The notes: generated by a model from the letters alone, not told the origin. DNA of 64,000 nt from Paludisphaera mucosa (GCF_029589435.1 NZ_JARRAG010000002.1:1-64000); one strand, 5' to 3'; positions 18,266 through 38,416 are shown, counted from the first letter of the stretch. Made by a program: numbers and translations.

Positions 18266-19678
18266 GTGATCCACGATTCGAGCCATTCCATCGAATCCTT
18301 CTCGTCCTCGGACCTCCCGGCTCCCGTCGACGAGTCATGCAGACACCGCCAGGAGCCGGCCCCATGCTCTCTCGCGCGCCGGGTCGTGGCGCAAGGATTC
18401 ATGGCGGCCGGCCTGGTGGCTTCCTGCATCGCGGCCCGCGCGGACCTGCCCTATGACCGCGAGCCCATCAATTACCTGACGGCCGAGGCCCACGACCCCG
18501 TCGCCGGGCTCAAGCGTCTCGTCGAGTCGAAGCAGGTCGTCCTTGAGAAGGAAGGCCCGCAGGGATACCTCCGCGCGGTGCTCAGGGCGCTCGACGTCCC
18601 GGTCTCGTCGCAGGTCCTGGTCTTCTCCAAGACGAGCTTCCAGGTCACGAAGATCTCGCCCCGATCGCCCCGGGCGTTGTACTTCAACGACGAGGTGTAC
18701 GTCGGGTTCGTGCAGGGGAGCGACACGCTGGAGTTCTCGGCCGTCGATCCCGAGCTGGGCGGGGTCTTCTACCTGATCGAACAGAAGGCCGACGGCCCGC
18801 CCGAGATCGAGCGGCGCACGCACGACTGCCTCCAGTGCCACGTCTCGGGCAAGACGCAGGACGTCCCGGGCCACATGGTGCGGTCGATCCAGACCGATCC
18901 CACCGGACGCCCCGTCTTCAGCTCGGGGAGCTTCACCAGCACCCACGAGAGCCCGCTCAAGGAGCGCTGGGGGGGCTGGTACGTCACCGGCAAGGCGGGC
19001 GGCCAGGCCCACATGGGGAACGTCCTGACCCCGCCGCGCGAGAAACTTGAGCCGCTGGAAGTCCAGTCTGCGGGCGACGTGCTCGACCTCGCGGGGCGGC
19101 TCAGCCTCAAGCCCTACCTCTCGCCCCACAGCGACATCGTCGCGCTCCTCGTCCTGGAGCATCAGGTCAAGATGCAGAACCTGATCACCGTCGCCAACTA
19201 TCAGGCGAAGCTGGCGATCCAGTACGCCAGGGAGATCAGCAAGGCGTTCGGCGAGCTGGAAGGGACGATCTCCGAGAGCACCGCCAGGCGCTACGAGGGC
19301 CCGGCCGAGCAGCTCGTGAAGTACATGCTGTTCGTGGACGAGGCCCCGCTGGCCGGTCGCGTCGAGGGCTCGTCCGCGTTCGCCGCCGAGTTCGCCGCCC
19401 GCGGCCCGCGCGACCCCCAGGGGCGTTCGCTGCGCGACTTCGACCTGACGACCCGGCTGTTCAAGTATCCCTGCAGCTACCTGATCTACTCGAAGGCGTT
19501 CGACGCCCTCCCCGCCCCGGTCAAGGAGCGGACCTACCGCCGGCTCTGGGACGTCCTGACGGGCAAGGACCCGTCGCCGGCCTTCGCCCGCCGCACCCCC
19601 GAGGAGCGCCGGGCGATCCTCGAGATCCTGCTCGCCACCAAGCCCGGCCTGCCGGACTACTGGCGCGCCTCGCCCTGA
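18266..19678 (+). CDS. Periplasmic mono-heme cytochrome c-like protein
   Basis: A product of up to 470 residues with one heme c motif, CLQCH, in RRTHDCLQCHVSGKTQDVPG. It is exported: RRVVAQGFMAAGLVASCIAARA precedes DLPYDREPINYL. The start is uncertain; GTG 18266 gives the longest form, while ATG 18401 begins inside the signal-like segment. The region after the heme motif (RPVFSSGSFTSTHESPLKERWGG, LSPHSDIVALLVLEHQVKMQ) is typical of planctomycete cytochromes of unknown role. A TGATAAT element lies at 18251, immediately upstream of GTG. It precedes the large redox fusion gene on the same strand by 130 bases. Confidence 0.82.
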   Translation: MIHDSSHSIESFSSSDLPAPVDESCRHRQEPAPCSLARRVVAQGFMAAGLVASCIAARADLPYDREPINYLTAEAHDPVAGLKRLVESKQVVLEKEGPQGYLRAVLRALDVPVSSQVLVFSKTSFQVTKISPRSPRALYFNDEVYVGFVQGSDTLEFSAVDPELGGVFYLIEQKADGPPEIERRTHDCLQCHVSGKTQDVPGHMVRSIQTDPTGRPVFSSGSFTSTHESPLKERWGGWYVTGKAGGQAHMGNVLTPPREKLEPLEVQSAGDVLDLAGRLSLKPYLSPHSDIVALLVLEHQVKMQNLITVANYQAKLAIQYAREISKAFGELEGTISESTARRYEGPAEQLVKYMLFVDEAPLAGRVEGSSAFAAEFAARGPRDPQGRSLRDFDLTTRLFKYPCSYLIYSKAFDALPAPVKERTYRRLWDVLTGKDPSPAFARRTPEERRAILEILLATKPGLPDYWRASP

Positions 19679-19807: not shown

Positions 19808-22800
19808 ATGCCGAAGCCGCCCTCGCCCGCCCGTCGCTCGCGGAGGATCGCCTGGGGCCTCTTCCTCGGGCTCGTCTCGCTCCTGGCGGCCGACCTGATC
19901 CGCGCCCAGGTGCTGCGGATCGAAGCCGGGGGCTCGCCGCCCGCCGAGGTCCCGAAGGACGCCAGGGCCGACTCGTCCCTCTTCGCGCGCGAGAACCTGA
20001 CGGCCTGGTGCATCGTCCCGTTCGACTCGAAGAAGCGGAACCCGGAAGAGCGCGCGGCGATGCTCGAACGGCTGGGCTTCAAGCATTTCGCCTACGACTG
20101 GCGGGCCGAGCACGTCCCGACGTTCGACGAGGAGTTCGAGGCCCTCAAGCGGCACGGCGTGAGCCTCGACGCCTTCTGGGGCCCCGCCGAGCTGAACGAC
20201 GACTCGAAGCGGATCCTCGACGTGCTGAAGCGGCATAACGCCAAGGCGCAGCTCTGGGTCCTGACCGACTTCGGGCCCGACAAGGCGACCGGGGCCGAGC
20301 AGGAGAGGCGAGTGACAGAAGGCGCCGCGCGGGTCAAGCCGCTCGCCCAGGCCGCGGCCGAGATCGGCTGCACCGTCGCCCTGTACAACCACGGCGGCTG
20401 GTTCGGCGAGCCCGAGAATCAGATCGCCATCATCGAACGCCTCAAGAAGGACGGGATCGCGAACGTCGGCCTCGTCTACAACCTGCACCACGGCCATCCC
20501 CACGTCGAGCGCCTGAAGCCGCTCTTGCAGACGATGATGCCGTACCTCCTCGCCCTGAATATCAACGGCATGGATCCGGGGGGCGACGGCGGTGCCCGCA
20601 AGATCCTGCCGCTGGGCCAGGGGGGGCTCGACCTGGGCCTGTTGAAGCTGATCCGCGAGAGCGGCTACAAGGGCCGGATCGGCATCCTCGGCCACACGCA
20701 GGACGACGCCGAGGAGCGGCTCCGCGACAACCTCGACGGCCTCGACTGGCTCGTCCCGCAGCTCGACGGCGCGGCGCCCGGCCCCAAGCCGACCCCGCGC
20801 ACGCCCGTCCCCCCCCCGCCCGCCCCGACTCCGGCCGCCGCGGCCGCGGGCCTCTCGCCGGCGCAGGCGCAGGAGGTCGCGACGGTGCTCGACGCCGCCC
20901 GCCGCGACGGCGACCCTGCCCGGGGCGCGGCGGTGTTCACCGACGTCCGGTTCACCTGCTTCTCCTGCCACAAGGTCGGCGACCAGGGGGGCACGATCGG
21001 CCCCGAGCTGACCGCGCTGGTCAAGACGATGCCGCCCGAGGACGTCGTGGCGTCGGTCCTCTGGCCCCGGCTCAAGGTCAAGGAGGGCTACGAGGCCTTC
21101 GCCTTCGCGCTCGACGACGGCCGGCTGCTCCAGGGCTACAAGGTCGAGGAGACGCCGACCGCGATCAAGGTGCGCGACGTCGCGCTCGGCGACATCGTCC
21201 CGGTGCCCAAGAACGCGATCGAGGAGAGCAAGCCCCTGGGCACGCTCATGCCCGAAGGCCTGGCCGCCACGATGTCGCCCCGTGAGCGGAGCGACCTCCT
21301 GAGCTTCCTGCTCAAGCTCGGCGCCGAGGGCACGGCGACACCCTCGCTGACGCTCCCCGCGCACGCCCACGCGCCCGCGGAGTTCGACTACGACCAGAAG
21401 CCCCTCCGGCCCGAGTTCTACACGAGCGCCGCCGATCACGTGAACCGCAACCGGATCTTCGACTTCTACGCCAAGGAAGCCGACTTCTTCCGCAAGCAGC
21501 CCTCGCCGCCCCCCCTGCTTCCGATGTATCCCGGCCTCGACGGCGGCAAGCAGGGCCACTGGGGCAACCAGAATGAGAGCACCTGGGCCGACGGCCGGTG
21601 GAACGAATCCGACCTGGGGACGGTCCTCGGCGGCGTCTTCCGCGTCAACGGCGAGACCATCCCCAAGGCGGTCTGCCTGCGGCTGGGCGAGAAGGGCGAG
21701 CTGTCCGCCTGCTTCAACCCCCAGACGCTCAACTACGAGGCCCTCTGGACCGGCGGGTTCGTCCGCTTCTCCAGCGTCCGGCACGGCTTCATGGAAGGCC
21801 TGATCCTCGACGGCAAGCCGCTGCCGAAGCCCGCGGCCACCGCGCCGAGCAAGCCCTTCGTCTACAAAGGGTACTACCGCCACGGCAAGCGAGTCATCTT
21901 CTCCTACACGTTCGACGGGGAGGAGTGGCTCGACGCCCCCTGGGCCGACGAGAAGGGCGGTTTCGTCCGCGAGGCCGGCCCGGCCGCGACCCACCGATTC
22001 CGCGACCTCACCCGCGGGGGCGGGGCGCAGTGGCCCCAGGTGCTCGTCACCCACGGCCGGCCCGGCCAGTCTCGGCCGTTCGCGATCGACACGATCGAGC
22101 CCCCGTTCGAGAACCCCTGGAAGGCCCTGATGTTCTTCAGCGGCCTCGACTTCCTCGCCGACGGCACGGCGATGATCGCCACGATGGAAGGCGACGTCTG
22201 GCGCGTCTCAGGCCTCGACGACGGCCTGGCGAACGTGTCCTGGAAACGGTTCGCCTCGGGCCTGCACCAGCCGCAGGGCGTTGTGGCCGCCGACGGCAAG
22301 GTCTACGTCCTGGGCCGCGACCAGATCACGGAACTCCAGGACCTCGACGGCGACGGCGAGGCCGACTTCCTCCGCTGCGTCGACAACGCCTACACGACCT
22401 CGCCCGCCGGCCACGACTTCATCTGCGGCCTCCAGCGCGACGCGGCCGGGAACTTCTACACGGCCTCCGGACCCCAGGGCGTCCTCCGCATCCCGCCCGA
22501 CGGCGGCCCGCCCCAGGTCCTCGCCACCGGATTCCGCAACCCCGACGGGCTGGGCCTCACCCGGTCGGGCGTGTTGACCGTCCCCCAGTCCGAGGGCGAG
22601 TGGGTGCCCACGTCGCAGGTCTGCGAGATCCGGCCCGGCCGCCATTACGGCTATCCCGGCCCGAAGAACGACGAGCCCCCCGCCCTGCCCCTCGTCTACC
22701 TGCCCCGCGGGATCGACAACTCCAGCTCCGAGCAGGTCGAGGTCACGAGCGACCGCTGGGCCCCGTTCCAGGGGAACCAGATCCACCTCTCGTTCGGCGC

Positions 22801-23848
22801 GGGGGGCGCGTTCCTGCTGCTCCGCGACGAGGTCGACGGCCAGCCCCAGGGGGCCGTCTCGCCGATCCCCGGCGACTTCCTGTCGGGGATCCATCGCGGC
22901 CGGTTCAGCCCGCGCGACGGCCAGCTCTACGTCTGCGGCCAGGCCGGCTGGGGGACGTACACCTCGCTCGACGGCTGCTTCCAGCGGCTGCGCTACACGG
23001 GCGACCCGGTGCAGGCCCCGCGGTCGATCCACGCGGTCGAGAACGGCGTCGTTTTGACCTTCCACCAGCCCGTCGATCCGGCCGTGGTCGGCCGTCCCGG
23101 CGCGTGCTTCGCGCAGGCCTGGAACTACCGCTACAGCAGCGGCTACGGCTCGCTCGAATACTCGACCCGGCATCCGGGGACCCCCGGCCACGACGTCCTG
23201 CCGATCCGAGCCGCGCACGTCGTCGGCGACGGCCGCACGCTGTTCCTGGAGATCCCCGACATCCAGCCCGTCGACACGCTCCACCTCCGCCTGGACGTCG
23301 ACGCCGGCCCGCCCCAGGAACTCTTCGCGACCGTCCACAAGCTGGCCCCGCCCTTCACCGGGTTCGAGGGCTACAAGCCGACGCCCAAGATCGTCGCGGC
23401 CCACCCCCGGCTGGCCGACATGGCCGCCCTGAAATTCAAGAGGACTCCGAACCCCTGGGCGACCAAGATCCCCCGGGCGCGCACGATCGAGATCGCCGCG
23501 GGCCGGAACCTGACCTACACCGTGCCGGCGATCAAGGTGAAGGCGGGCGAGGCGGTCAAGCTGACGTTCCTCAACCCCGACGTCGTCCCCCACAACTGGG
23601 TCCTGCTCCGGCCCGGGACGCTGGCGACGGTCGGCGACCTGGTCAACAAGATCATCGCCGAGCCCGACGCCGCCGCCCGCAACTACATCCCGAAGACCGA
23701 GGACGTCCTCGTCTACGTCGACGTCGTCGACCCCGGGACCGAGGCCGCCATCTACTTCAAGGCCCCCGACTCGCCCGGACGCTACCCCTACCTGTGCAGC
23801 TTCCCCGGCCACTGGATGGTCATGAACGGCGTCATGACCGTCGAGTGA
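19808..23848 (+). CDS. Large secreted fusion: TIM-barrel, cytochrome c, propeller and azurin-like cupredoxin
   Basis: A 1346-residue exported protein (signal segment at about 10-35). Residues about 60-320 resemble a sugar phosphate isomerase/epimerase barrel (HFAYDWRAEHVPTFDEEFEAL, ALYNHGGWFGEPENQ, NVGLVYNLHHGHPHVERL). A Pro/Ala linker leads to heme motif CFSCH (384-388) with the PVC-type downstream region (PPEDVVASVLWPRLKVKEGY). A long propeller-like part follows (about 520-1160; LDFLADGTAMIATMEGDVWRV, GFRNPDGLGLTRSGVLTVPQ). The last 130 residues are a cupredoxin with type-1 copper ligands H1262, C1330, H1335 and M1339 in CSFPGHWMVM. It is probably a periplasmic oxidoreductase passing electrons between heme and copper; the substrate is unknown. 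Confidence 0.9.
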   Translation: MPKPPSPARRSRRIAWGLFLGLVSLLAADLIRAQVLRIEAGGSPPAEVPKDARADSSLFARENLTAWCIVPFDSKKRNPEERAAMLERLGFKHFAYDWRAEHVPTFDEEFEALKRHGVSLDAFWGPAELNDDSKRILDVLKRHNAKAQLWVLTDFGPDKATGAEQERRVTEGAARVKPLAQAAAEIGCTVALYNHGGWFGEPENQIAIIERLKKDGIANVGLVYNLHHGHPHVERLKPLLQTMMPYLLALNINGMDPGGDGGARKILPLGQGGLDLGLLKLIRESGYKGRIGILGHTQDDAEERLRDNLDGLDWLVPQLDGAAPGPKPTPRTPVPPPPAPTPAAAAAGLSPAQAQEVATVLDAARRDGDPARGAAVFTDVRFTCFSCHKVGDQGGTIGPELTALVKTMPPEDVVASVLWPRLKVKEGYEAFAFALDDGRLLQGYKVEETPTAIKVRDVALGDIVPVPKNAIEESKPLGTLMPEGLAATMSPRERSDLLSFLLKLGAEGTATPSLTLPAHAHAPAEFDYDQKPLRPEFYTSAADHVNRNRIFDFYAKEADFFRKQPSPPPLLPMYPGLDGGKQGHWGNQNESTWADGRWNESDLGTVLGGVFRVNGETIPKAVCLRLGEKGELSACFNPQTLNYEALWTGGFVRFSSVRHGFMEGLILDGKPLPKPAATAPSKPFVYKGYYRHGKRVIFSYTFDGEEWLDAPWADEKGGFVREAGPAATHRFRDLTRGGGAQWPQVLVTHGRPGQSRPFAIDTIEPPFENPWKALMFFSGLDFLADGTAMIATMEGDVWRVSGLDDGLANVSWKRFASGLHQPQGVVAADGKVYVLGRDQITELQDLDGDGEADFLRCVDNAYTTSPAGHDFICGLQRDAAGNFYTASGPQGVLRIPPDGGPPQVLATGFRNPDGLGLTRSGVLTVPQSEGEWVPTSQVCEIRPGRHYGYPGPKNDEPPALPLVYLPRGIDNSSSEQVEVTSDRWAPFQGNQIHLSFGAGGAFLLLRDEVDGQPQGAVSPIPGDFLSGIHRGRFSPRDGQLYVCGQAGWGTYTSLDGCFQRLRYTGDPVQAPRSIHAVENGVVLTFHQPVDPAVVGRPGACFAQAWNYRYSSGYGSLEYSTRHPGTPGHDVLPIRAAHVVGDGRTLFLEIPDIQPVDTLHLRLDVDAGPPQELFATVHKLAPPFTGFEGYKPTPKIVAAHPRLADMAALKFKRTPNPWATKIPRARTIEIAAGRNLTYTVPAIKVKAGEAVKLTFLNPDVVPHNWVLLRPGTLATVGDLVNKIIAEPDAAARNYIPKTEDVLVYVDVVDPGTEAAIYFKAPDSPGRYPYLCSFPGHWMVMNGVMTVE

Positions 23849-23885: not shown

Positions 23886-24794
23886 TCAGAACGCCTCGCC
23901 GTCGACGAGCACGCCGTCGGAGCGATGGGCCAGGGCCTGGAGGACGCCGCGGTTGATCCGGCTCTTGAGCATCCGCACCGAGCCGTCGCCGAACAGGAAG
24001 TTCGCGCCGCCCGTGTGGAAGCTCGAGAAGCCGCCGACCAGGTCGGCGTCGATCTCGCCGTTGTCGATCATGGCCTGAAGGACGACCGGGTCGAAGGCCT
24101 GGCCCGGCCTGAGGCCCGATTGCGACGACTTCGTCGCGAACGCGACGTCGGGGCGGCCCTCGTCGTCGAGGCCCCAGCCCGTGTTGCGGAGCGTGGCCGC
24201 CGTCCCCATCGCCCAGGTGCCGAACGAGAGCGTCGACCGCCCCGACTCGCCGACGAAGAACGTGAACGCCGGCCCGTCGACGAGGTCCTCGCGGGGGACG
24301 CGGCTGTTGAGGAAGAAGACGCCGTGGTTGTCGACGTCGATCGGGCCCTCGAGGTCGTTGTGGCACGCCGCGTAGTTCGTGCCCGTCGAGCTCGGGTTCG
24401 AAGGGCACAGGAAGGTCGAGATCCGGACCTCCACGGCCGTCGCGTTGCCGTCGGAGAAGGCTCCCAGCCGGAAGTTGAGGTGGTTGTAGACGTTCCTCTG
24501 CTCCAGGAACGGCAGCAGCCGCGCGGCCCAGCCGAAGCGATAGCCCGTCGGGTCGCTCGTCACGGGTCCCTGGAAATCGACCACCCCGGGCGGATAGACG
24601 CGGTTCGACGAGTGGTAGTTCTCCAGGGCGAGGCCGACCTGGAACAGGTTGTTCGTGCACTGCATCCGGCGCGCGATCTCGCGGGCCGACTGCACCGCCG
24701 GCAGCAGGAGCGCGATCAGCACGCTGATGATGCCGACGACCACCATGAGTTCGACCAGCGTGAAGCCGCGGCGGCCTTCAGAACGAGCCATCAT
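23886..24794 (-). CDS. DUF1559 prepilin-like protein 3
   Basis: A 302-residue protein with a type IV prepilin N-terminus: short basic leader, G|FTLVELMVVVGIISVLIALLL with Glu5, and [21 protein letters not shown]. The globular DUF1559 domain ends in the hallmark GGANFLFGDGSVRMLKSRI. The leader would be cut by prepilin peptidase before assembly into a pseudopilus-like fibre or surface array. It is the last gene of the machine operon and overlaps the previous DUF1559 gene by 17 bases. Its tail (RSDGVLVDGEAF) parallels those of its two paralogues. Confidence 0.93.
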   Translation of the reverse strand: MMARSEGRRGFTLVELMVVVGIISVLIALLLPAVQSAREIARRMQCTNNLFQVGLALENYHSSNRVYPPGVVDFQGPVTSDPTGYRFGWAARLLPFLEQRNVYNHLNFRLGAFSDGNATAVEVRISTFLCPSNPSSTGTNYAACHNDLEGPIDVDNHGVFFLNSRVPREDLVDGPAFTFFVGESGRSTLSFGTWAMGTAATLRNTGWGLDDEGRPDVAFATKSSQSGLRPGQAFDPVVLQAMIDNGEIDADLVGGFSSFHTGGANFLFGDGSVRMLKSRINRGVLQALAHRSDGVLVDGEAF

Positions 24795-25737
24795 CGATCT
24801 CCTCCCCGTCGTCGCGATGACCCAGCCGCCGGAAGACGGTCGGGTCGATGGAGGCCCTCAGGAACCGGACCGAGCCGTCGCCGAAGACGAAGACCGCCCC
24901 GTCGCCGCGATGGTTGCTGCCGAACCCGCCGACGTACCCGGGAGGCGGGGTGATGCGCTGGTCGACGATCAGCGCCTCCAGGTCCGCGGGCGTACGTCCC
25001 GAAGAGCGCCACGCTTCCGACTTCGCCGCGTCGCCGAGCGCGGCGGCGTCGAGGCCGTTGATCGCCGCCCCCGTGTTGCGGAGCGAGCCGCGCCCGCCCA
25101 CGAGCCAGCCCGTCGCCGCCGGCGCGACGACCTCGCCCACGAAGATCGTCTGCGAGAGGCCGTCGAAGACCTCGGCCGCGCGGACGCGGCTGTTGAGGAA
25201 GAAGACGCCGTGGTCGTCGACGTCGACGGCCTTCTCGATCTCGTGATGACACCCGGCGTAGCTCGTGCGGCCGAACTCGGGCGACGTGACCTGCCCCGCG
25301 GAACCGGCCAGGACGCTCCTCGAAGATCCGACCCAGCCGCCGTAGGGGAGCGAGTCCGGACAGGCCATCATATTGATGGTCGTCCGCCGCGCCGTCGAGT
25401 TGGCGGCGTCCGCGGCCCCGGCGTCGAAATTCAGCGTGTCGTAGACGGCCCGCTGCTCGCAGAAGGGCAGGAGCATCGCCGTCCAGGGCGTCCGCATCAC
25501 GGCCCCCGTCTCGGAGAAGGGCCGCGAACCGTCGACGACGCCCGGCGGGTAGACCTCGTGGGTCGCGTGGTAGCCGTGGAGGCCCAGGTGGATCTGCTTC
25601 AGGTTGTTCATGCACTGGATCCGCCGCGCCGCCTCGGTCCCGCCCCGCAGGACGGGGAGCATCAGGGCCAGGATGACGGCGATCACGCCCAGCACGATGA
25701 TGAGTTCGATCAGCGAGAAGCCCGACGTGCGTTTCAT
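24778..25737 (-). CDS. DUF1559 prepilin-like protein 2
   Basis: A 319-residue paralogue of its two neighbours. The prepilin leader MKRTSG|FSLIELIIVLGVIAVILAL has Gly -1 and Glu5, followed by ARRIQCMNNLKQIHLGLHGYH. The domain contains TPWTAMLLPFCEQRAVYDTLNF and the C-terminal [18 protein letters not shown]. It sits 28 bases after the first DUF1559 gene and overlaps the third. The 17-base overlap downstream implies translational coupling. It is probably a structural subunit of the pseudopilus built by the GspE/GspF set upstream. Confidence 0.93.
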   Translation of the reverse strand: MKRTSGFSLIELIIVLGVIAVILALMLPVLRGGTEAARRIQCMNNLKQIHLGLHGYHATHEVYPPGVVDGSRPFSETGAVMRTPWTAMLLPFCEQRAVYDTLNFDAGAADAANSTARRTTINMMACPDSLPYGGWVGSSRSVLAGSAGQVTSPEFGRTSYAGCHHEIEKAVDVDDHGVFFLNSRVRAAEVFDGLSQTIFVGEVVAPAATGWLVGGRGSLRNTGAAINGLDAAALGDAAKSEAWRSSGRTPADLEALIVDQRITPPPGYVGGFGSNHRGDGAVFVFGDGSVRFLRASIDPTVFRRLGHRDDGEEIDDGSF

Positions 25738-25765
25738 GGTCCGCCCCCCTTCGACCGGCCGCGGG

Positions 25766-26686
25766 TCAGTACGACGAGGAGTCGATCATCTCGCCATCGG
25801 CCCGGCTGCCGAGCCGGCGGTAGATCTCGGCCTGGACGGATGACTTGATGAACCGCACCGAGCCGTCGCCGAACACGAAGTTGACGCCGCCGGGATGCCG
25901 GCTGGCGAAGCCGCCGACGTATTTGAGGGCCTGGTCGGGCGGCCCGCCGGGGGCCAGCAGGGTGGCGGGATCGACGGGGCCGGCCTCGGTCCAGACCAGC
26001 TGGGTCGAGTTGGCGTTGGGCATCGTCCCCATGTTCCGCAGGCTGGCCCGCGTGCCCGACGCCCAGCCCAGGTCGAGGCCGTCGTTGAGCTTCTCGCCGA
26101 CGAACAGGGTCTGGCTGGTGCCGTCGGGGATCTCCTCGTAGCGGATCACGCTGTTCAGGAAGAGCACGCCACGGTTGTCGGCCGCGATCGGGGCCTCGAC
26201 GTCGTGGTGGACGCCGGCGTAGCTCGTCAGCGGGATCCCCTGGGCGTTCCGCGACTTGCCCGCGTCGGCCGACGGGCAGAGGAACGAATGGACCAGGTTC
26301 CCCCGGGTCGTGAGGTTCGCCTGATCGTAGAGGCTGGCGTTGAAGTTGAAGTGGTTGTAGACGTTCTTCAGCTCCATGTACGGCGTCAGGCGGGCGACCC
26401 AGCCGAAGCCGTAGCCCTTGGCCTGGTCGAGCACGGGGCCCTTGCCCTCGTCGACCACGCCGGGGGGGAGGACCTCGAAGGCCCCCTCGTAATTGTGCAG
26501 GGCCAGGCCGACCTGCATCAGGTTGTTGACGCACGTCACCCGCCGCGCGGCCTCGCGAGCCGACTGGACGGCGGGCAGCAGGAGCGCGACCAGGACGGCG
26601 ATGATCGCGATCACCACCAGCAACTCGATCAGCGTGAAGGCCGGCCGGCGGGACGTGCCGGGGACGGGCGACGGACGCGATGTCAT
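25766..26686 (-). CDS. DUF1559 prepilin-like protein 1
   Basis: A 306-residue DUF1559 protein from ATG 26686; the frame is open upstream but only over the opposite pilin genes. The leader [25 protein letters not shown] is longer than in its paralogues and has Ala rather than Gly before the cleavage site, which prepilin peptidases tolerate poorly. The hydrophobic helix [23 protein letters not shown] and the C-terminal [19 protein letters not shown] are typical. It is the first of three tandem copies, 17 bases after the minor-pilin gene. Confidence 0.93.
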
Positions 26687-26703
26687 GACGGGACTCCTCG
26701 ATA

Positions 26704-27129
26704 TCAGGGCGTGTCGGACAGGACGACTTCCCGGCTCGATCGGACGCGGCGCGGGGGGTCGGGGGGATAGTCGGCCTGGACGCGGACCGTCCGCGCCCCG
26801 CCGCCGGGGGAGGCCGTTTCCACGCGGATCGTCACCAGCGCCGCGGTCCCGGGGCCAGCGCCGGACGCCGCGCCGAGGGCCTCGGCGGGGATCTCCCAGC
26901 GTTCGCCCGTGTATCCGGGCGCGGCCGAGAGCCGGGCGAACGCCCGGTCGAGGCCCGCGTCGGCGAGCAGCTCGGATTGCAGGCTCCGATCGTGGGCGCG
27001 GGCCCGGTCGCGGAAGGTCACGCTCAGCCGCACCAGCGAGGCACCGACGAGCGCGATCACGAAAAGGAGGACCAGCACGGCGACCGAGGTCAGGCCGCGG
27101 CGGCGCGATCGCCTGGGGGGGATTCTCAC
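26704..27129 (-). CDS. Minor pseudopilin-like protein (GspK/PilX-type)
   Basis: A 141-residue protein with an N-terminal basic stretch and one hydrophobic helix ([21 protein letters not shown]), then a short coiled helix ([29 protein letters not shown]) and a beta-rich tail. The position of Glu5 is not kept (GLTSVAVL), as in GspK-type minor pseudopilins, which also start with RRGxxLV-like leaders. It overlaps the preceding GspJ-like gene by 4 bases and lies before the DUF1559 genes. A role in fibre initiation is inferred from place and architecture. Confidence 0.75.
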
Positions 27130-27665
27130 GGCTTGCCTCCTTCCGGCTTCCCGGCCGGCGCGCCCTTGCCCGCGAGAGCCAGGATCTCCACGGGCCGGAC
27201 CGGATCGATCCGGTCCTTCCGGGGCTGGACGTCGACGACGATCGCCGCGAACCGTCGGCCTTCGATCTCGCGGATCTCCAGCCGGGCGGCGACGGCCTGG
27301 GGGATGCGGTACGGCTCTCGCGCCGCATCCTTGCCCCCCTCGACGACGACGCGCGAGACCGCCCCGTCGTCGGCCACGCGGTACTCGACGGCCCGCCCGG
27401 GCCGGGGTTGCAGCTTGAGGGTCCGGCCGTCGAGGGCGACGCCTCGCGCCTCGTGGACGTCGGCCCGGAAGCGCCCCGCCAGGCGGTCGAGCGCCTCGGA
27501 TCGCTCGAACGCGGCCCGGCCGTCGGCCTCCAGCCGCATCGCCAGGCCCAGGAGCATCACGCAGGTCCCGAGCATGAGCGCGACGGCCGTCAGCAGGACC
27601 ATCAGCTCGACCAGCGTCACGCCGCGGCGTCTACTTTGCGACCGTCGATTCGCCGGGGTGCTCAT
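27126..27665 (-). CDS. Minor pseudopilin-like protein (GspJ/PulJ-type)
   Basis: A 179-residue product from ATG 27665. The leader [37 protein letters not shown] has Gly -1 and Glu5. [21 protein letters not shown] after the helix is the region where GspJ-like proteins read LERxLxxDxxxA. The rest is a beta-rich domain ending in a Gly/Lys/Pro tail. It overlaps the GspI-like gene upstream and the GspK-like gene downstream by 4 bases each, so translation is probably coupled. Confidence 0.82.
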
Positions 27666-33719: not shown

Positions 33720-36700
33720 TTACTTCCCGAGGACGGGCCGGACCTGGGCGGGGGAGCCTTCGACGTCTTCGAGGACGCATCGGAAGCCGTCGCCGCGTCG
33801 GCCCGGCTCGAAGCCGACGTAGAGGGCGTGGACGCCGCGGTCGAGTTCGACGGTCAGGGCGTCGGGGGCCTTCGGGTCGGGTTCGACGCGGCGGCCGTCG
33901 ATCCAGAAGGCCAGGTCGCGGGCCGAGTCGAATTTCAGCCGCACCGCGCCGGGGGTGGTGACCTCGACGTCGGAGCGGACGAGCGTCATCGGCGGGGCGC
34001 CGCTCACCCGGGGGTTCGCCGGAAGCTCGCTCGGGACCAGCCGGCCGCCGACCGTCGCGTAGGCGGTCTTCCAGGGCAGCGCGTCCTGGCCCTGGATCAC
34101 GGCCTCGACGCTCGACCGGATCATGGCCGTGGCGGCCTCCTTCGTGCTGGCGAGCGCCCGCCAGCGCCGCAGGACGCGCTCCTTGCTGACCGCGTAGTCG
34201 CCGATCTTGCCCAGCTCGGACAGGAAGCGGACGAGGTCGACCAGCTCGGGCCGGGTCAGGGGCTCGGTGAGCCCGGCGGGCATGATCGAGCCGGCGACCT
34301 TCTGCTCCTCGATCGCGTCGAGGGGGATGGCGATCTCCTGGTCCTCGGCGTCGCGGAGGACCAGCTCGGAATCGGTCTGGCGGACGCGGATGCCCGTGAC
34401 GATCCGGCCCTCGTTGGTGGCGACGACCGTGGCGTGGAAGTTCTCCTTGACGGCCTTGTTGGGCTCCAGGATCGAGTCGAGCAGGTAGTCGATCGGGGCG
34501 CTCGCGCCGATGCTCTCCATGCTGGGGCCGACCTGGCCGCCGGCCCCGGCGATCGCGTGGCACTTCAGGCAGGTCATGTCCTCGCGGCGGAAGATCGCCT
34601 CGCCCCGGACGGGGTCGCCCTTGGCCAGCTCGGCGAGGATCGACGCCTTCTCTTCGGGAGGGTACGTCCGGTTGGTGTCGCCCAGCGATCCGGACTTCGC
34701 CAGGGCGTCGATCAGCTCCTGCGCCGAACGGCCGTTGGCGCGGATGTCGCGGACGGCGAGCTTCGCCAGGTCGGGGTCGAGCTTCACGGCCGCCAGCGCC
34801 TTCGCCAGCGCGGCCGGGCCGTCGCGACGGCCCAGGAACGAGGTCAGCACGGCCTGCGCCTCGTTCAGGCGGGCGGCCTTCAGGCCCGCGAGCCACTTCG
34901 CGGCGCGGTCGGCGACGGCCGCCGGGTCGTGCGAGGCCAGCGAGGCGATCGCCAGCGTCTGGCCCAGGGAGTCGCCTCCCGGCTCGGCGAGCTTGGCGAC
35001 GAGGGCCACGGATTCGGGGTCGGCGAACGCGATCAGGCCTCGGATGGCCTCCAGCCGCAGGGGGGCCGAGGCCTCGGCGGCGACGGCCAGCTCGGCGAGC
35101 TTCGGCCGCAGGCCGGCGATCTTCCACGCGCCGACCGCCGCGGCCGCCGCCGACCGCAGAGACTCGTCGGGCTGGGTCAGGAGCGGGCCGATCCGCGCGA
35201 GGTCGCCGGCGGGGACGATCTTGCGCTCGCGGCCGGCGCGGACGAGGGCCGTGAGCAGGGCCGACTGGCGGGCGGGCGGCAGGGCGTCCTTCTTCCCGAT
35301 CAGGTCCAGCAGCAGCCCCAGCTCGGCCGGGCCGCCCACGGCCGCGATCAGGTTCAGGGCGGCGGCGTCCTGTTCGTGCGGGACGCGGCCCTCCTTGTAA
35401 AGGGCCAGCAAGGGCTGGAGCACGTCGGGCGAGCCCATGGATTCCAGGGCGAAGACCAGCCGGCGGGCGTCTCCGCCGAAGTCGAAGCGGCCGGCCCGGA
35501 CGGCGGGCAGCCATGCGGGGGCCAGGTCGCGCGCGGCCAGCCAGAGGGCGTAGTCGAGGAACCCGTCGACCGGCTTGTCGAGCGCCTTGAGCGCCAGCTC
35601 CGCCGACTTCTCGTTCGGCATCCGCGCCAATGAACGAACGGCCTCCAGCCGGACGCGCGGGGCTTCGTCCGCGACCAGCGGGGCCAGCAGTTCGTCGGGG
35701 TCGGTGACCCGGCTCTTCCAGAAGGGGACGATCCGCGCGGCCGCCGCCCGGACGCGGGCGTCCTTCGAGTTCAAGGCCTCTTCAAGCAGGGCCGGCCGGG
35801 CGACGTCGAGCGCCTGGAAGGTCCAGAGCCCTTCGAGCCGATTGCGCTCGAAGTCGGGGTCGGCGGGATCGAGCGTGGCGACCCAGTCCGACAGGACCGG
35901 ACCGACCGCGGCGGGCCCGCGCTCCTTGAGGACGCGCTTGGCCTGCCGGCGGGTGTATTCCTCGGGGGCCTTGAGGGCTTCGAGCAGGGCCGGGACGGCG
36001 GCGTCCACGAGCTTCGGCCGCTCGACGACCGGGCGGTTCTTGGCGGTGACGCGCCAGATCCGGCCCCGGGTGTGGTCGCGGCGGGGGTCGCGGAAGTCGA
36101 CCTCGCCGTGCTGGATGATCGGGTTGTACCAGTCGGCGATGTAGATGGCCCCGTCCGGGCCCATCAGGACGTCGATCGGCCGGAAGGAGACGTGCTTCGT
36201 CTTGATCAGCTCGGACTGCTCGCGCGAGGAGAACCCCGCGCCGTCGTCGCTGACGACGAACCGGCAGACTCGGTTGCCGCGGAAGTCGTTGGTCAGCAGG
36301 CTCCCCTGCCAGGAGTCGGGCAGGTGTCGACCGCTGGCGACCTCCAGCCCGCAGTACTTCGGGCTGCCCGGGTTCAGGCCCTTGAGCAGGCGGACGGCGT
36401 CGACCGCGGTGACGTAGTAGGCGCCCGGCAGGCAGTAGTTGATCCCCTCGCCGCCCGCGCCGTCGGTCGCGAACGACTGGCCCCAGGCGTCGACCTGATG
36501 GCCCCAGCCGTTGACCAGGCCGCGGATGAAGACGTCCAGCTCCATCGTCTCGGGGCGGAACCGCCAGATGCCGCCGCCGTTCAGCCGACGCACGCCGTGG
36601 GGGGTCTCGATGTGGCTGTGGATGTAGATCGACTGGTTGAAATAGAGCATGCCGTCGTGGCCCCACCGCAGCGTATGCAGCAGGTGGTGCGTGTCCTCGG

Positions 36701-37205
36701 TGCCGAAGCCCGAGAGCACGACGCGGGTGGAGTCGGCCTTGCCGTCGCCGTCGGTGTCCTTCAGGTGGAGCAGCTCGGTGCTGTTGGCGACGTAGACGCC
36801 GCCGTCGCCCGGCTCCACCCCGGTGGGAATCAGCAGCCCGTCGGCGAAGACCGTCGTCTTCTCGGCCCGGCCGTCGCCGTCCTTGTCTTCCAGCACGAGG
36901 ATCTTGTCGTTGGCCTCCTGGCCGGGCTTGATCTGGGGGTAGACCTCGGAGCTGGCGATCCAGAGCCGGCCGGCGGGGTCGAAGTTCATCTGGATCGGCT
37001 TGGCGATCAGCGGGTCGGCCGCGTAGAGGTTCACCTCGAACCCGTCGGCGACGATGAACGACCGCCGCTCGACCTCGGGATCCGGATCCGGCGGCGGCCC
37101 GACCGCGTTCTGGGCGCGCGACGAGGTCGAGAGGGCGAAGACCAGGCCCGCCGCGACGGCCAGGCCCCGGGGGAAGGCGCTCCCGCGCCGGGATCGGATG
37201 CTCAT
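33720..37205 (-). CDS. PVC-type membrane-bound dehydrogenase with HEAT repeats and cytochrome c
   Basis: An 1161-residue exported protein from ATG 37205, overlapping the upstream SGNH gene by ATGA. Signal segment at about 13-31. Residues 45-430 form a propeller dehydrogenase-like domain (FIVADGFEVNLYAADPLIAKP, GRLWIASSEVYPQIKPGQ, DVLMGPDGAIYIADWYNPII). About 450-830 are HEAT-type helical repeats (VRLEAVRSLARMPNEKSAELA). Heme motif CLKCH is at 879-883, followed by the PVC heme-binding region (PIDYLLDSILEPNKAVKENF). A C-terminal carbohydrate-binding-like domain closes the chain. It is probably periplasmic and oxidises a sugar-like substrate; the substrate is inferred only from the family. Confidence 0.92.
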   Translation of the reverse strand: MSIRSRRGSAFPRGLAVAAGLVFALSTSSRAQNAVGPPPDPDPEVERRSFIVADGFEVNLYAADPLIAKPIQMNFDPAGRLWIASSEVYPQIKPGQEANDKILVLEDKDGDGRAEKTTVFADGLLIPTGVEPGDGGVYVANSTELLHLKDTDGDGKADSTRVVLSGFGTEDTHHLLHTLRWGHDGMLYFNQSIYIHSHIETPHGVRRLNGGGIWRFRPETMELDVFIRGLVNGWGHQVDAWGQSFATDGAGGEGINYCLPGAYYVTAVDAVRLLKGLNPGSPKYCGLEVASGRHLPDSWQGSLLTNDFRGNRVCRFVVSDDGAGFSSREQSELIKTKHVSFRPIDVLMGPDGAIYIADWYNPIIQHGEVDFRDPRRDHTRGRIWRVTAKNRPVVERPKLVDAAVPALLEALKAPEEYTRRQAKRVLKERGPAAVGPVLSDWVATLDPADPDFERNRLEGLWTFQALDVARPALLEEALNSKDARVRAAAARIVPFWKSRVTDPDELLAPLVADEAPRVRLEAVRSLARMPNEKSAELALKALDKPVDGFLDYALWLAARDLAPAWLPAVRAGRFDFGGDARRLVFALESMGSPDVLQPLLALYKEGRVPHEQDAAALNLIAAVGGPAELGLLLDLIGKKDALPPARQSALLTALVRAGRERKIVPAGDLARIGPLLTQPDESLRSAAAAAVGAWKIAGLRPKLAELAVAAEASAPLRLEAIRGLIAFADPESVALVAKLAEPGGDSLGQTLAIASLASHDPAAVADRAAKWLAGLKAARLNEAQAVLTSFLGRRDGPAALAKALAAVKLDPDLAKLAVRDIRANGRSAQELIDALAKSGSLGDTNRTYPPEEKASILAELAKGDPVRGEAIFRREDMTCLKCHAIAGAGGQVGPSMESIGASAPIDYLLDSILEPNKAVKENFHATVVATNEGRIVTGIRVRQTDSELVLRDAEDQEIAIPLDAIEEQKVAGSIMPAGLTEPLTRPELVDLVRFLSELGKIGDYAVSKERVLRRWRALASTKEAATAMIRSSVEAVIQGQDALPWKTAYATVGGRLVPSELPANPRVSGAPPMTLVRSDVEVTTPGAVRLKFDSARDLAFWIDGRRVEPDPKAPDALTVELDRGVHALYVGFEPGRRGDGFRCVLEDVEGSPAQVRPVLGK

Positions 37206-38416
37206 CGGGAGGCCTCGCTCTCGGGGACCAGCTCGTAGGTGTGCGGGACGGGCTTGCGCAAGGCGGCGATCTCCTTCTCCTTCGCGTCGACCAGCGGGTC
37301 GAACTGGGGGATCTCCACGGCGTTGCGGCCCTGCTCGTGCTTGCGGAAGCCGAACAGGTAGGTGATGTTCTGCGGCCGCCAGCGGTAGAAGAAGAGCAGG
37401 TTCTTGGCGTTGATCGCCGCGCGGAGCTTCTCGACCTGCTCGGCCTCGGGCACGATCGGGATCGTCTGCCCCGCGGCCCATTCCGCGTCGGTCTTCGTCG
37501 CGACCGCGCGGCCGTCGATCTTGAGCGTGTAGCGGCCGGGCTTCAGCTTCTCGACCTTGAGCTTCCGGGCGTCGGCCGAATCTTCGCCCTTCTGCGGGGA
37601 GGCGGGGGGCGGGAGCGGGCCGGCGGCGACGTAGCGGACCGGCGCGTCGCCCGCCGTCACGACCTTGGTGTGCGAGGACGGGTCGGGGTTCAATCCCAGG
37701 ACGGGGAGGTTGGCCAGCCGCCACGAGCCCAGCTCCGTCAGGTGGATGCCGTCGTCAGTGTCGGGGGCCGAGCCGGTGGGCCGGGACTCCAGGCGGGCGC
37801 GATCCTTGGCGAACGCGTCGAAGAGGTCGACGAACGCGGCGTCGCGCTCCTCGGCGATCTTGCGGACCGCGTCGGCGTAGAGCCGCAGGTCGCGGTTGTG
37901 CGCCGAGGGGTCCGGCAGCGGCGGCGGCATGGTCTCGTGGGGCAGCGGCGAGAGCAGGACGAGCCGGGCCTTGAGCGGCGCGACGGCGTCGAGGAACGCG
38001 TTGTAGCCCTCGACGAACCGCGAGAGGCCGGCCTCGCCGTCGAACGAGTCGGCCATGCCGTAGCCGACGACGAGCACGGTCGGCTTGGCGTCGGTCACCT
38101 GCCGCTTCAACTCGCGGAAGCCCGCCTCGGGCGGGTCGAAGCCGGCCCGCGAGAGCCCGCGGACCGTGTCGCCGCTCCAGCCCAGGTTGCGGAACGTCAG
38201 GTCCTTGTCCGGGTTGGCGAGCGTCAGGCTCGTCTCAAGGTATCCGTAGCGCTGGTCTCGCTCGATGAACGTGTCGCCGACCAGGACGACACGGTCGCCG
38301 CTATGGAAGTCCCACGGCGGCGGCGGCGGCTTGGCGACGGCCGTCGAGGCCGTCGCCGCGAGGATGAGGAGCCCGGCGAGGAGGGTCCGGGCGGGCGAAA
38401 GGCGGGCTGCGGGCAC
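37202..38416 (-). CDS. SGNH/GDSL-family protein with Thr in the nucleophile position
   Basis: A 404-residue exported protein. GTG 38416 is preferred because GGAG precedes it and the signal segment TLLAGLLILAATASTAVAK starts nearby; an ATG at 38494 without a binding site would add 26 residues. Block I reads VVLVGDTFIERDQRYGYLET, so GDT replaces the catalytic GDS. VGYGMADSFDGEAG and DDGIHLTELGSWRLA (late Asp-x-x-His) are present. The C-terminal half ends in a region typical of PVC proteins (AKNLLFFYRWRPQNITYLFG). It overlaps the PVC dehydrogenase gene, so they are probably made together, perhaps for carbohydrate breakdown. Confidence 0.88.
   Translation of the reverse strand: MPAARLSPARTLLAGLLILAATASTAVAKPPPPPWDFHSGDRVVLVGDTFIERDQRYGYLETSLTLANPDKDLTFRNLGWSGDTVRGLSRAGFDPPEAGFRELKRQVTDAKPTVLVVGYGMADSFDGEAGLSRFVEGYNAFLDAVAPLKARLVLLSPLPHETMPPPLPDPSAHNRDLRLYADAVRKIAEERDAAFVDLFDAFAKDRARLESRPTGSAPDTDDGIHLTELGSWRLANLPVLGLNPDPSSHTKVVTAGDAPVRYVAAGPLPPPASPQKGEDSADARKLKVEKLKPGRYTLKIDGRAVATKTDAEWAAGQTIPIVPEAEQVEKLRAAINAKNLLFFYRWRPQNITYLFGFRKHEQGRNAVEIPQFDPLVDAKEKEIAALRKPVPHTYELVPESEASR

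Follow-up and report, generated by a model that had tools for sequence, protein, structure and literature searches.

The analysed window, a 64,000-nucleotide stretch of DNA from Paludisphaera mucosa, contains a gene (19808-23848, + strand) for an exported modular redox protein that is not a one-off but belongs to a family conserved in PVC bacteria. In this protein, a xylose isomerase-like (XI-like) TIM barrel, a heme c domain, a DUF6797 region with a beta-propeller, and a type-1 copper domain are joined on a single chain. Our preferred reading, to which we assign a probability of roughly 0.4, is that of an extracytoplasmic dehydrogenase-like assembly that probably acts on a sugar-derived compound, passes electrons via copper and/or heme, and has the barrel as a dedicated partner.

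Domain architecture of the protein

The gene is located in an 8.2 Mb genome, starts with ATG, and encodes 1346 amino acids; the orthologues align to it over the full length, with no stop codons and with identity down to about 40%. The hydrophobic N-terminus, as read from the sequence, is a predicted signal (residues about 1-33, RRSRRIAWGLFLGLVSLLAA; 19808-19906, as all following features on the + strand). Domains were assigned using Pfam and NCBIfam profiles with curated cut-offs, and AlphaFold2 models were examined, with mean pLDDT of 90 for the barrel and heme domains and 86 for the remainder. The barrel (residues 56-318; 19973-20761), identified by Pfam, the structure model and alignments, is followed by a poorly conserved Pro/Ala-rich linker (residues 319-364; 20762-20899) and the heme domain (residues 366-503; 20903-21316). 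Next is the DUF6797 region (residues 546-720; 21443-21967), which is predicted to be beta-rich and includes the PF20601 match (residues 634-708; 49.7 bits against the Pfam cut-off of 24.9), and then a six-bladed propeller resembling those of GSDH/Asd proteins in the structure model and profile alignment (residues 754-1065; 22067-23002). A connector that is conserved in alignments and beta-rich in the model (residues 1066-1222; 23003-23473) leads to the C-terminal copper domain (residues 1223-1346; 23474-23845). Domain search and predicted structure support all four modules named in the original prediction, namely, barrel, heme c, propeller, and copper domain; the long propeller-like region described there does contain a propeller, but also DUF6797, which had been missed.

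The heme domain matches TIGR02603 (residues 368-502; 76.1 bits against the NCBIfam cut-off of 68.15) and contains the CFSCH motif (residues 384-388; 20957-20971) and a candidate distal ligand, M481 (21248-21250). The latter aligns with Met292 of Kustd1711, a diheme cytochrome c from Kuenenia (7zs0), which was identified as the distal heme ligand by crystallography and mutation (PMC11791136). Kustd1711 is a solved relative of this domain, with a calcium-tuned heme potential of about +350 mV when calcium is bound (PMC11791136); unlike the protein described here, it consists of two such heme domains and no other module. Elsewhere in the window, a 1334-codon frame (33720-37724, - strand) encodes a further TIGR02603-like heme region (about 35% identity) together with a weakly matching propeller segment. 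A second protein of the same genome, encoded by a 1710-codon frame (L007, C2:1104973-1108308, - strand), combines a cupredoxin with a TIGR02603-like heme domain located C-terminal to it.

The copper domain matches PF00127 (residues 1230-1346; 36.7 bits against the Pfam cut-off of 21.2) and superimposes on auracyanin A with Z of 18.4 and rmsd of 1.5 A over 118 residues. It shares with auracyanin and azurin the fold and the four type-1 copper ligands, H1262, C1330, H1335, and M1339, as had been read from the sequence originally, and differs from them in being the C-terminal part of a 1346-residue chain and in falling short of the azurin equivalog TIGR02695 (33.7 bits against a cut-off of 105.1). 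The claim that heme c and type-1 copper are combined on one chain is borne out, with both profiles above their cut-offs and both ligand motifs in place. Because the copper ligands are invariant in all 39 aligned sequences, the combination of modules is not due to chance.

Exchange of modules around a constant core

Near-whole-protein matches were identified in 31 of the 45 genomes of the host's family, and orthologues with 40-83% identity are present in many contigs of Planctomycetota and Verrucomicrobiota, the closest named relative being that of Paludisphaera soli (83% identity across the entire length). The combination had been considered unusual even for PVC fusion proteins; in fact, it is widespread among PVC bacteria. 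The search for the same domain order in other genomes, which the original prediction proposed, recovered it in many Planctomycetota, with LamG replacing heme in Verrucomicrobiota.

The Isosphaeraceae proteins have the order barrel-heme-DUF6797-propeller-copper. In Verrucomicrobiota and one planctomycete contig (L061), the order is barrel-LamG-DUF6797-propeller-copper, and CxxCH is absent altogether; in Pirellulaceae and their relatives (L052, L055, L056), both modules are present (barrel-LamG-heme-DUF6797-propeller-copper). In Schlesneria and a relative (L088-L090), barrel-LamG-DUF6797-propeller is followed by five CxxCH motifs, and there is no copper domain. The barrel is combined with LamG, HEAT repeats, and heme in L091, occupies the C-terminus in L093, and is encoded by the next gene in L058. 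A paralogue in the P. mucosa genome (C2:3421808-3425722) has the order heme-heme-DUF6797-LamG-propeller, with neither barrel nor copper domain, and the core without the barrel was also found in L049, L050, L053, G320, and G250. Given that barrel, heme, LamG, and copper domain are swapped or dropped throughout this survey, the DUF6797-propeller is the constant core of the family, whereas heme is optional and the carriers vary. Every complete member examined that has this core carries heme c, type-1 copper, or both. In the tree of the core, there is a single change between presence and absence of heme (support 100/100); in this tree, the labels of the N-terminally truncated L080 (LamG) and L064 (heme) are unproven, and L052, L055, and L056, labelled as heme, carry LamG as well. 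An internal electron path from heme to copper, as originally suggested, does not hold as an essential mechanism of the family: the Schlesneria-like members have no copper, and the absence of heme from the chain of the Verrucomicrobia-type members led us to reject an obligate heme-copper wire for the family.

Among 294 planctomycete genomes, the barrel is encoded in 26, the core in 24, and both in 20, with the core called at a propeller score of at least 496 bits, a threshold set after the gap in the scores had been seen. The co-occurrence is significant by Fisher's test (4.5e-22), a number that overstates the evidence because the genomes are related and shared ancestry inflates it. In 6 of the 20 genomes (G150, G174, G179, G238, G242, G283), barrel and core are encoded by unlinked genes. 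Thus, the barrel can be fused N-terminally or C-terminally, adjacent, or unlinked, and yet it co-occurs with the core.

A barrel with a replaced metal site

The original prediction of a sugar isomerase-like barrel stands with respect to the fold but not the chemistry. The AP_endonuc_2 match (residues 156-310) is borderline, at 27.0 bits in hmmscan and 31.1 in the genome search against the Pfam cut-off of 31.1, whereas the model (pLDDT 90) is close to known structures, with Z of 21.6 for Art22 (8z1i) and 20.9 for 4ovx from Planctomyces limnophilus. The barrel shares this fold with the AP_endonuc_2/XI-like proteins Art22, UlaE, YcjR, and 4ovx (Z about 21). It differs from them in that it is exported and fused to redox modules, and that the canonical Glu-Asp-His-Glu metal quartet at the ends of strands 5-8 is replaced by Y193, N225, N251, and G295. 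In the profile alignment from which this replacement was read, 18 AP_endonuc_2 paralogues from the same genome were compared; 17, 17, 14, and 17 of these retain the respective ligands.

In the place of the quartet, there is a different conserved cluster of Tyr, Asn, and His residues. The conserved histidines of the barrel are H102, H195, H227, H228, H230, and H296. In a second set of 27 barrels, which extends to stand-alone genes and a group of divergent paralogues, Y193, N225, and N251 are identical in all, H296 is present in 26 (with Glu in L096), and H228 in 25; position 295 is variable (G, N, D, or A). Two divergent paralogues (L173 and L174, with ENLTAWLV) keep Y193, N225, N251, and H296, and have H102, H195, and H228 changed. 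The stand-alone barrels, judged by eye, seem to retain a signal sequence. As the quartet is replaced by a nearly invariant Tyr/Asn/His set even in stand-alone copies, the barrel is not an ordinary sugar isomerase, and with all four metal ligands missing, a functional metal-dependent isomerase is ruled out. The barrel has thus kept its fold but not the known metal chemistry.

Possible function and competing explanations

Under the preferred reading, a small molecule, probably a sugar or a sugar derivative, would be oxidised outside the cytoplasm at the DUF6797-propeller core, and the electrons would leave through type-1 copper to a periplasmic acceptor, with heme serving as an additional relay or store. 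The barrel would bind or convert the substrate before or after the oxidation, by means of the rebuilt site instead of the customary metal one. For catalysis by the propeller taken separately, we see the odds as somewhat short of even.

The case for a dehydrogenase starts from the predicted fold of the propeller, which is six-bladed in the model and matches sugar dehydrogenases (2ism, Z 18.9; 3a9g, 18.8; 3das, 18.1), although the scores of designed and NHL propellers are equal or higher (Z about 20). The profile alignment with GSDH is weak (probability 61%) and places R910-N911 in register with the Arg-Asn/Asp motif of GSDH proteins. Hence the six-bladed fold and this register appear to be common to our protein and the soluble aldose sugar dehydrogenase/GSDH family (2ism, 3a9g, 3das, 2g8s); unlike that family, the protein has no match to Pfam GSDH at E-values up to 1, and no PqqE above the cut-off was detected in the host genome. 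A search for PqqC, run without a positive control, was not positive either, so neither search supports PQQ as the cofactor. The conserved ligands of heme and copper, the presence of an electron carrier in every complete core member, and the co-occurrence of barrel and core also argue for a dehydrogenase, and a sugar context is suggested by LamG in many members and, in a single case, by a gene cluster with GH26. Counting against it, besides the negative cofactor and Pfam searches, type-1 copper and heme are carriers that name no reaction, and the nearest conserved neighbours, an amidohydrolase and DUF6807, are no plain pointer to sugar oxidation.

The GH26 case comes from a Bacteroidota contig (Lewinellaceae; L094:4795-10142), where the gene for a stand-alone barrel is flanked by those for a sodium:solute symporter and a GlcNAc 2-epimerase family protein, and GH26 lies upstream; this cluster is a single hint to mannan-type sugars. 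A gene for a RoxA-like cytochrome c adjoins it on the opposite strand. The amidohydrolase, which resembles Xaa-Pro dipeptidases, is encoded near the gene in 13 loci; with 254 bits against a curated cut-off of 500, it is not that equivalog. Two of these loci (L048, L084) are of the heme type from planctomycetes, and therefore the link to the amidohydrolase crosses the divide between heme and LamG. As a partner in the host genome it is rejected, with no orthologue there (best score 32 bits). A DUF6807 gene is nearby in 8 loci and an AraC-type regulator in several, and the family loci are repeatedly located near DUF1501 and PSCyt/DUF1549 genes. In six Verrucomicrobial loci (L060, L072, L073, L079, L082, L083), the AraC-type regulator, the amidohydrolase, and DUF6807 are all encoded beside the gene, and most of these amidohydrolases share 85-90% identity with the copy in L071.

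In the window, the gene immediately upstream (18266-19678, +) encodes an exported 470-residue protein with a CLQCH motif and no Pfam or NCBIfam match; it was dismissed as a conserved partner, since apart from the host's own genus, just one further genus of the family has it next to the gene. Downstream (23886-27328, -), a run of three or more genes encodes proteins with a pilin-like methylation motif at the N-terminus and a tail of the DUF1559 type (first gene searched).

The main rival to catalysis by the propeller is catalysis by the barrel, where the rebuilt Tyr/Asn/His cluster would form a new metal site (copper, zinc, or iron) or a metal-free one, the propeller would be a scaffold, and heme and copper would pass electrons to or from the barrel. 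In its favour, almost every barrel, whether fused or stand-alone, retains Y193, N194, N225, H230, N251, and H296, and several genomes encode the barrel but lack this core, which is what one would expect of an independent enzyme. Against it, the core is found without the barrel in the five cases listed above, and where the barrel stands alone, its chain bears no redox module. We consider this explanation unlikely.

A quite improbable alternative is a non-catalytic conduit or binding protein, in which the binding of partners or a polysaccharide would fall to propeller, DUF6797, and barrel, while copper and heme would shuttle electrons between other proteins. The LamG domains common in the family and the loss of the canonical catalytic ligands in the barrel are compatible with such a role, but the polar residues of barrel and propeller are strongly conserved across two phyla, more than scaffolding usually needs. 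The original prediction, too, envisaged a purely structural protein should the barrel lack its active site and the propeller be unrelated to dehydrogenases; the canonical metal quartet of the barrel is indeed gone, but the propeller resembles sugar dehydrogenases in structure, if no more closely than designed and NHL propellers, so that this refutation does not fully apply.

Least probable is a lactonase of the SMP-30/gluconolactonase type or another hydrolase in the propeller, with the redox domains oxidising its substrate or product at another site of the protein. Among the weak Pfam matches of the propeller relatives, SGL ranks second in frequency (8 of 18, best E-value 0.0024), and lactonase structures match with Z of 16-18, but sugar dehydrogenases score slightly higher, align over more residues, and show higher identity. 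Foldseek matches to the propeller and cupredoxin of nitrous oxide reductase involve no real superposition (rmsd 22-29 A), and those of the propeller to viral structures are chance propeller matches.

Returning to the family as a whole, it fits among the known multidomain cytochromes of PVC bacteria (PSCyt/PSD and TIGR02603/TIGR02604 heme proteins), which are likewise large, exported, and modular, and combine planctomycete-type heme domains with the carbohydrate-binding-like LamG (PMC5615132). The function of such large cytochromes is undescribed, with a possible role in carbohydrate metabolism (PMC5615132). Compared with these, the present family adds type-1 copper, the barrel with the replaced site, and the DUF6797-propeller core, and the P. 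mucosa protein does not reach the TIGR02604 cut-off (17.8 bits against 122.2). A literature search, to which subscription papers were mostly inaccessible, found no paper naming DUF6797 or this domain combination. It is conceivable, if rather doubtful, that we are dealing with a new class of extracytoplasmic PVC oxidoreductases, in which a barrel devoid of the metal quartet and rebuilt on Tyr/Asn/His is coupled to the DUF6797-propeller core, with type-1 copper, heme c, and multiheme serving as exchangeable plug-in carriers of single electrons. Part of the value of the family lies in the barrel, for which replacement of the customary catalytic metal site has been demonstrated. An unusual handle is also provided by the natural variants in which the core stays constant while heme, LamG, or copper is exchanged or lost, and their comparison would separate the module that performs the chemistry from those that are mere electron carriers.
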